A stretch of DNA of 64,000 bases from Rhodothermus marinus DSM 4252 (GTDB lineage Bacteria > Bacteroidota > Rhodothermia > Rhodothermales > Rhodothermaceae). A program made the position numbers and the translations under genes. Location: positions 2,894,874 to 2,958,873 of the forward strand of contig NC_013501.1 in NCBI RefSeq assembly GCF_000024845.1. The letters run 5' to 3'. The notes below the pieces were generated by a model. The model saw only the letters and a program-made list of their open reading frames with translations. It was not told the DNA's origin and did no database searches. How positions within the stretch are numbered: position 1 is the first letter of the stretch; each line of letters starts with the position of its first letter. Below are positions 55,952 to 61,261 of this stretch, piece after piece.

Positions 55952-60016
<4,065 letters not shown>

Positions 60017-60182
60017 GGCTGCCTCCGAAAACCTGTACGTTCTGGTGATTGAACCACTTGCCCGGTGCCGGCGACTGCATAACGGCAATAACGAGGGCGT
60101 TCCCTGCCGCTCACCGGCACAGATGCGGTTCTTTAATAAAGCGACCTGAGGTCCGTTAAATCAAGGATGAGTTAGTCACAAC

Positions 60183-60251: not shown

Positions 60252-60345
60252 TTATTTCCGTTATACATCAATGCGCCTCTAAGTTCAGCCTCCACAATCC
60301 ACCCGCCCACACTTCTTGGCCTCTCGAGACGTATAACGGAAATAA
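60252..60345. repeat. 15-bp inverted repeat upstream of nrdJ
   Basis: TTATTTCCGTTATAC (60252-60266) and GTATAACGGAAATAA (60331-60345) are perfect complements with 64 bases between. A weaker relative, CATAACGGCAATAACG, lies near 60078. Confidence 0.6.
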
Positions 60346-60369
60346 AAACCCCGGCCAATCAACCGGGGT
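60344..60369 (-). terminator. terminator of the acidic-protein gene
   Basis: On the minus strand ACCCCGG-TTGATTGG-CCGGGGT is followed by TTTTATTT, 40 bases past the stop of the acidic-protein gene. The T-run overlaps one arm of the 15-bp inverted repeat. Confidence 0.88.
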
Positions 60370-60408
60370 CCGCCACCGTGCAAGACGGCTTGTCTTCAAC
60401 CTGCCTGT

Positions 60409-60666
60409 TTAAAATTCTTCCTCCTCGTCGAAATCATCGAAATCTTCGTCAAAGTCCTCCTCCTCAAAGTCAAAATCATCTTCTTCGTCCTCGAACTCGT
60501 AATCGTCTTCGAACTCGTCGTATTCCTCCTCGTCGAAGTCTTCTTCGTACTCTTCGTAATCCTCTTCTTCGAAGTCTTCGTCTTCAAAGTCGAAGTCTTC
60601 TTCCTCATCGTAGGCCCAGAGGGGCTGCAGCGGCAGCCGATCCGGCGCAAAGAGTGCGGTGCGCAT
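60409..60666 (-). CDS. highly acidic, aromatic low-complexity protein, unknown function
   Basis: The 85-residue protein begins MRTALFAPDRLPLQPLWAY. From residue 20 to the end (66 residues) it contains only D, E, F and Y: 50 acidic and 16 aromatic by my count, with an aromatic every 2-7 residues and a final Phe. It has no predicted helix-breaking Pro or Gly in that part. Its own terminator follows. I recognise no family; DNA mimicry, cation binding or phase separation are possible. The start was chosen at the last Met before the tail. Confidence 0.7.
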   Translation of the reverse strand: MRTALFAPDRLPLQPLWAYDEEEDFDFEDEDFEEEDYEEYEEDFDEEEYDEFEDDYEFEDEEDDFDFEEEDFDEDFDDFDEEEEF

Positions 60667-60862
60667 GGTCAGGAAGCTTACCGGTTTGGTGAACAGGGAT
60701 CCGACCGGAACGTCCGGCCACACCTCAAAAATACACAACCACGCCGTCAATGCAAGCCCTTCCCACCGGCCTGAAAGTATGAAATTTTTCACGTCGAACC
60801 GAACGTCCCCCGAGCGAGTACATGCTACGCCTGCATCGCTCGAACACAATCGAAAAGGAACC

Positions 60863-61261
60863 ATGTACGACACGGACCGCAGCGCGTATCCGCATCCGGA
60901 CGAGTTCAAGGTGAAACGTCCGGAATATACAGAGCTGGAAGACGGCTACTACCGGGCGACGATCGAGATCGCGCCCTTCAAAGTCGTGGGGGAGAGCCGC
61001 ACCAAGGCGGGCGCCCGCCGCGTGGCCCTTTACCGCGCCGCGCTGACCTACCGCTCCTACCACCCGTCCTACCGGGTGGAAAATCCCTACCCCGACGAGT
61101 TCGTCGATCAGGAGGGCACGCGCTGGCGCCGGCTGCCTCCCTCGCAGCAAGAACTCGGCGACTATGCGTTCGTCGGTCCCGACGGCGAGGAAGACTACGC
61201 CACCATCGAACAGATGCTGATGTGGGACATCCGCCCGGCTTCCAGTCAGGAAGAAGACTGA
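60863..61261 (+). CDS. protein of unknown function
   Basis: The 132-residue protein is acidic and aromatic-rich (MYDTDRSAYPHPDEFKVKRPEYTELEDGYY...YRSYHPSYRVENPYPDEFVD). AAAAGGAA precedes the ATG and a terminator follows, so it is a monocistronic gene. No family recognised. The middle may be a small beta domain (YRATIEIAPFKVVGESRTKAGARRVAL). Confidence 0.75.
   Translation: MYDTDRSAYPHPDEFKVKRPEYTELEDGYYRATIEIAPFKVVGESRTKAGARRVALYRAALTYRSYHPSYRVENPYPDEFVDQEGTRWRRLPPSQQELGDYAFVGPDGEEDYATIEQMLMWDIRPASSQEED

Follow-up and report, generated by a model that had tools for sequence, protein, structure and literature searches.

Within the window (the whole 64-kb stretch of DNA that was analysed), an open reading frame on the minus strand, 60666-60409, encodes a protein of 85 residues that begins MRTALFAPDRLPLQPLWAYDEEE and ends DEEEEF. 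The frame lies between a ribonucleotide reductase gene, nrdJ, and a divergently oriented gene for a 132-residue protein, referred to here as h132, and the features of the locus are as follows.

55952-60016, minus strand: nrdJ, vitamin B12-dependent (class II) ribonucleotide reductase with an intein; the first gene downstream, likewise on the minus strand.
60346-60371, minus strand: intrinsic-terminator-like hairpin 3' of the stop codon, with an 11-pair stem and a T-rich tail.
60409-60666, minus strand: acidic-aromatic coding sequence, stop codon included, called as a frame, with orthologues in 7/7 genomes of the genus.
60412-60612, minus strand: tail of D, E, F and Y only, residues 19-85, ending EEEEF, delimited by composition.
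60613-60666, minus strand: N-terminal module MRTALFAPDRLPLQPLWA, residues 1-18, delimited by protein alignment.
60703-60719, minus strand: hairpin GGCCGGACGTTCCGGTC in the predicted 5' untranslated region, with pairing in 7/7 Rhodothermus.
60726-60733, minus strand: promoter-like element TATTTTTG, 67 bases 5' of the ATG and upstream of 7/7 copies in the genus Rhodothermus.
60863-61261, plus strand: h132, the divergent 132-aa neighbour, conserved in the order, with a predicted dsRBD-like fold at residues 11-67.

The codons span 60666-60412 (minus strand) and are closed by a TAA stop at 60411-60409, which confirms the open frame proposed by a sequence-only reading of this DNA. The same reading had described a tail built from four amino acids that started at residue 20; the tail is borne out and begins one position earlier, at residue 19, giving a run of 67 residues (29 E, 21 D, 12 F and 5 Y), and the count of 50 acidic and 16 aromatic residues given for residues 20-85 is exact. 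No two of the 17 aromatics in the tail are adjacent, the C-terminal residue is F, and the net charge of the 85-aa protein, which lacks lysine and has just two arginines, is -49. Across the six frames of the window this is the sole run of D, E, F and Y of at least eight residues, and a run of 66 has a log10 p of -43.8 at the D/E/F/Y frequency of 0.217 taken from four neighbouring genes. AlphaFold, with a model built from 7 sequences, yielded no fold (pLDDT 60.6, pTM 0.12). Searches of Pfam and NCBIfam (E <= 0.1) and of PHROGs matched 0 families, profile methods being blind to such composition, and a sequence match in the PDB was not found.

The open frame extends upstream as far as a TTG at 60909; we prefer the ATG at 60666 because the intervening part contains the promoter-like element and the conserved hairpin, and because the protein alignment starts at this ATG. 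The element TATTTTTG fits the TAnnTTTG promoter type of Bacteroidota. A count of this box over 26 members of the wider family described below, for several of which (two of them Rhodothermus) the start was set too early, gave 5 against 1.1 expected, and 4 of those 5 were Rhodothermus, so the box is supported within that genus only. The arms of the 5' hairpin read GGCCGG/CCGGTC, and their variants among the 7/7 genomes are G-U pairs and one double change. At the other end of the gene, the terminator that had been claimed for it was found at 60371-60346 (minus strand); as a single site it is weak, since a scan of 1 kb returned 3 such sites against 1.6 expected in shuffles. Terminator-like hairpins can also be read 3' of the stop codon at other Rhodothermus loci.

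Conservation, whose lack, along with a lack of expression, had been named beforehand as grounds for giving up the claim, is plain within the genus, where all seven Rhodothermus genomes carry the gene. In pairwise comparison of the seven copies, 709 of 1256 tail codon sites differ, with changes at codon positions 1, 2 and 3 numbering 49, 99 and 680; the differing codons comprise 415 synonymous changes, 187 D/E exchanges, 50 F/Y exchanges and 57 others, the last mostly at indels. Indels are of whole codons without exception, and the N-terminus is conserved and non-repetitive. The acidic ORF is thus a real gene, coding and strongly selected. Low complexity and the openness of both strands might be taken to mean that there is no functional protein and that the frame is open by chance, in a GA-rich element of DNA or RNA that is drifting. 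The antisense strand is indeed open, but this follows from the genetic code, as no GAN, TTY or TAY codon has a stop codon as its complement, and such an element is contradicted by the third-position excess (680 against 99 and 49), the whole-codon indels, the conserved N-terminus and the strand control given below (0/102), which together leave this explanation very improbable.

Similarity searches proved a poor guide to the distribution of the family. A protein search of 40 relatives returned 7 true matches and one false one, the latter a 4-alpha-glucanotransferase-like frame in genome G011, whose real member was missed by the same search. Of the matches that profile A2 produced in 244 genomes, 7 were true and 3 false, and when contigs were scanned with this profile 589 stretches matched, of which 0 were confirmed. 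Profile A5, made from 15 members and searched in 345 genomes, had 5 matches, all in the genus Rhodothermus and corresponding to the only 5 Rhodothermus genomes in that set; it missed G011, G012 and G015 although these are rows of A5, so absence from a profile search means nothing for this family. A whole family can therefore escape profile search, as a model holding the relatives failed to recover them. Within the same genome, a second copy of the N-terminal 25 residues was not found, and a locus near 1023901 on the minus strand (L017, G000:C1) encodes a long non-acidic N-terminal part followed by a D/E/F-rich C-terminal tail. In the literature we found no paper on this protein, nor on an intrinsically disordered acidic protein in Rhodothermus.

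Relatives were instead sought by synteny, using the divergent neighbour h132 as anchor and accepting a closed ORF divergent from it with 40% or more acidic residues among its last 40. Of 238 genomes of the class, 106 contain a relative of h132, all of them from one and the same order, and 26 of these 106, in nine families, have an acidic ORF in the divergent position (f1 6/7, f2 2/6, f6 1/2, f7 1/1, f8 1/3, f9 3/3, f10 1/1, f12 5/8 and f13 6/24). The seventh Rhodothermus genome, G001, carries the acidic gene beside nrdJ, with h132 elsewhere, bringing the family to 27 members. Controls returned 0/102 on the opposite strand (4 of the 106 genomes having fewer than 300 bases of upstream sequence) and 1/60 in downstream strand-stretches; with the threshold raised to 65% acidic, the counts for synteny, opposite strand and downstream stretches were 19, 0 and 0. 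In f3 (3 genomes), f4 (26), f11 (2), f14 (5) and f15 (15), 0/51 genomes have an acidic ORF at the h132 locus, and hence the gene is dispensable or replaced there, the count covering this locus only, so that copies may lie elsewhere in those genomes. An overlapping set of named genomes gave an acidic ORF in 13/73, with 0 on the opposite strand.

A search for homologues of the same composition in Rhodothermus and Salinibacter had been proposed as a check. They are present in Rhodothermus and, by position, among the named carriers in Roseithermus sacchariphilus and one Rubricoccaceae MAG, and a looser version occupies the position in Longimonas halophila, but none was found at this position in Salinibacter altiplanensis (G037/L234), so that the check is borne out in part. 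The N-terminus varies among the nine families; a joint with the tail resembling P-[LVI]-x-A-[YF]-[ED], or LP-x(n)-A-Y/F-[ED], recurs by eye in f1, f2, f6, f7 and f9. Sequences are few and genomes of the order mostly drafts, and common ancestry of all 27 is beyond proof from sequences of this kind; the members agree in where they lie, in strand, in composition and in ending, with f13 the least secure family. One further ORF divergent from h132 (L074 in G013, family f8), of 59 residues and 34% acidic, falls below the threshold and is possibly a degenerate member.

To examine composition, the looser f13 (Salinibacteraceae-type, 6 tails) was set aside, leaving 21 tight members whose pooled tails of 1269 residues hold 872 acidic, 222 F/Y/W, 95 L, 24 I/V/M and 56 other residues, that is 69% acidic and 27% F/Y/W/L/I/V/M; tails of f13 are 46-55% acidic. 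K, R and H are absent from 27/27 tails, net charge ranges from -27 to -54 and length from 45 to 87 aa. Residue usage shifts from D and E with F and Y in Rhodothermus to mainly D with F and L in other families. Hydrophobic residues are evenly spaced in 7/7 Rhodothermus tails (p <= 0.05 against shuffles both on adjacency and on gap variance) and in 9/14 tails outside the genus on each measure; even spacing is absent in 5/14 of the latter and was found in 0/6 f13 tails. Spacing was tested on 16 of the 27 tails and then on all 27, the latter tails being slightly longer and some including L or W of the N-terminal joint. The last residue is hydrophobic in 27/27 (F 20, Y 4, V, I and L one each), for which chance from composition, as a product over the nine families, is 6.5e-6. 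No consistent amphipathic helix was found in 16 tails (100-degree moment, p 0.04-0.76). Selection acts on composition, on spacing in most members and on the hydrophobic C-terminus, and across several families it is composition rather than sequence that evolution has preserved. The combination is notable in that D/E exchange is free, yet the acid-to-hydrophobic balance is fixed and the last residue is hydrophobic.

These features bear differently on the roles that might be assigned to the protein. Were it a charge reservoir, buffering polyamines or divalent metals or serving generally as a polyanionic solubiliser or hydrotrope, only composition would count, in keeping with what is conserved, with the free swapping seen in 187 D/E exchanges and with the lack of a fold in the AlphaFold model. 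We consider such a role unlikely, as it leaves unexplained why F, Y and L are kept at roughly a quarter of the tail, evenly spaced in 16/21 members outside f13, and why the last residue is hydrophobic in 27/27. Evenly spaced aromatic stickers and acidic spacers could also drive complex coacervation with polyamines or basic proteins, making the protein a condensate scaffold or client; the stickers are regular and non-adjacent in 7/7 Rhodothermus and 9/14 other tails, folded structure is lacking, and the paper on the acidic exposure model itself links that model to stickers and spacers (PMC10550315). A net charge of -27 to -54 nevertheless opposes self-association unless a polycation is present, and we rate this role as somewhat less probable still than the reservoir.

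The C-terminus raises a more specific comparison with the tip of single-stranded DNA-binding protein (SSB), which binds many partners and in which acidic residues likewise precede a C-terminal F. The genome's own SSB ends SPDDDLPF, 20/27 members of the family end in an acid run followed by F, and the isolated nonapeptide of the E. coli tip, MDFDDDIPF, is described as binding PriA and chi (PMC7145534); the acidic protein might accordingly be a decoy that fills the pockets of SSB-interacting proteins. Unlike in SSB, the penultimate proline is found in 0/27, there is no OB fold, and many stickers take the place of one tip, while in 7/27 members the final residue is Y, V, I or L; an SSB match to the acidic protein was not found, and the genome's only PF00436 SSB is located elsewhere. 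A dedicated SSB-tip decoy therefore seems a long shot.

A role in cis must also be weighed, given that D/E-rich nascent chains are described as aborting translation in bacteria and eukaryotes (PMC9718836), and that mgtB is regulated by an acidic small ORF through nascent-chain destabilization of the ribosome (PMC8092293). As a translation sensor, the acidic nascent chain would destabilise the ribosome (intrinsic ribosome destabilization, at low Mg2+) and the ORF would serve as a leader controlling the terminator and nrdJ. In Rhodothermus the terminator does sit between the acidic ORF and nrdJ, and nrdJ lies less than 1.5 kb downstream on the same strand in 19/27 members and within about 2.2 kb in G195 and G196. 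It is, however, separated from the ORF by about 14 kb in G025 and, on the same contig, by about 188 kb in G017; it lies on another contig in G015, G197 and G198, and was not found in G193; moreover, the nrdJ-h132 layout exists in genomes without the acidic ORF, so adjacency to nrdJ says little. MgtL/MgtQ-type small ORFs share with this gene a nascent chain that is acidic near the start and a position upstream of another gene, but those described are very short (MgtQ 8 aa), whereas here the products are 45-87 aa, selected at codon level to the last residue, and no downstream gene is constant. The first 18 residues are, in addition, mostly non-acidic in Rhodothermus and are followed by a 66-residue tail under selection to its end. 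A sensor of this kind appears improbable, if slightly less so than the SSB-tip decoy.

Of the three roles that the sequence-only reading had put forward, that of a DNA or RNA mimic fits best, and it is the one we tentatively favour, short of thinking it probable: the claims made at the level of the gene hold, while mimicry itself is what we infer. The protein may be a stand-alone, cytosolic, disordered polyanion that acts as a multivalent nucleic-acid mimic on nucleic-acid-binding proteins; the gene itself, which has a promoter-like element and a terminator of its own, is secure. Acidic residues would bind basic nucleic-acid-binding surfaces and at the same time hold the hydrophobic stickers apart and exposed, and the stickers and the C-terminal F would anchor into hydrophobic pockets adjoining those surfaces. 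Nucleic acid would thereby be competed off, or the partner chaperoned; such partners, one or more, would belong to the machinery of replication, transcription or RNA, and the short N-terminal module could serve as a docking motif. As targets, the divergent dsRBD-like neighbour and proteins that bind the SSB tip would be no more than candidates. The broader proposal, that composition, sticker spacing and the hydrophobic C-terminus rather than sequence are inherited, making this an order-level family of acidic-exposure type that provides multivalent decoys or chaperones for nucleic-acid-binding proteins, we regard as conceivable and as the more doubtful of the two.

Acidic disordered tails are already known on many proteins, and several offer precedents for nucleic-acid mimicry. 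The acidic tip of Hfq has been shown to mimic nucleic acid, displacing RNA from basic patches (PMC5606850); it too is disordered and acidic, but it is a short tip on the regulated protein itself, whereas here a free protein carries a 66-residue acidic part with hydrophobic stickers. The delta subunit of RNA polymerase (RpoE) of Bacillus has a disordered acidic region with a reported charge of -47 (PMC7749165), close to the -49 found here; it differs in having a folded N-terminal domain, in place of which the present protein has only a module of 18 residues, disordered in the model and without a match in Pfam or NCBIfam. In the acidic exposure model for eukaryotic activation domains, acidic residues keep W, F, Y and L exposed, and the balance of both is the key parameter (PMC10550315); those domains are likewise disordered, with acidic residues interspersed with W/F/Y/L, but the present protein is bacterial, stand-alone, without a DNA-binding domain and far more extreme in composition. 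What the Hfq tip, the delta tail, the SSB tip and activation domains share is an acidic chain that seeks basic surfaces and exposes single hydrophobics. If the broader proposal is correct, bacteria possess free regulatory proteins of activation-domain type that are invisible to similarity search, and synteny is the way to find them. Furthermore, a free-standing acidic protein at one locus across families offers a natural test of function from composition and spacing alone.

The neighbour h132 was modelled with confidence (pLDDT 90.1) and matches nothing in Pfam, NCBIfam or PHROGs. With residues 11-72 effectively tested, its best Foldseek match has an E of 0.0036 (none <= 0.001), and its best VIA-align match has Z 6.4 and rmsd 2.1 over 55 residues (none >= 8), a level at which a chance arrangement is possible; a dsRBD-like fold of residues 11-67 is thus suggestive only. 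Many genomes hold h132 without an acidic ORF, and in G001 the two genes are unlinked, so that a functional link between them is only a guess.

Variation was also observed in and around nrdJ. Its intein, inserted at residues 398-751 here, is polymorphic, being absent from G001 and G006, and nrdJ of G002 carries roughly 430 additional codons, inserted after residue 940. Between the terminator and nrdJ lies an inverted pair of TATAACGGAAAT, at 60254-60265 (minus strand) and 60332-60343 (plus strand), with a third site at 60078-60089 (plus strand); at no more than one mismatch, the genome as a whole contains only these 3 sites. In 7/7 Rhodothermus genomes the pair is present, spaced 73-75 bp apart and with paired changes (mostly TTTCC/TTGCC), which makes it a candidate nrdJ operator.
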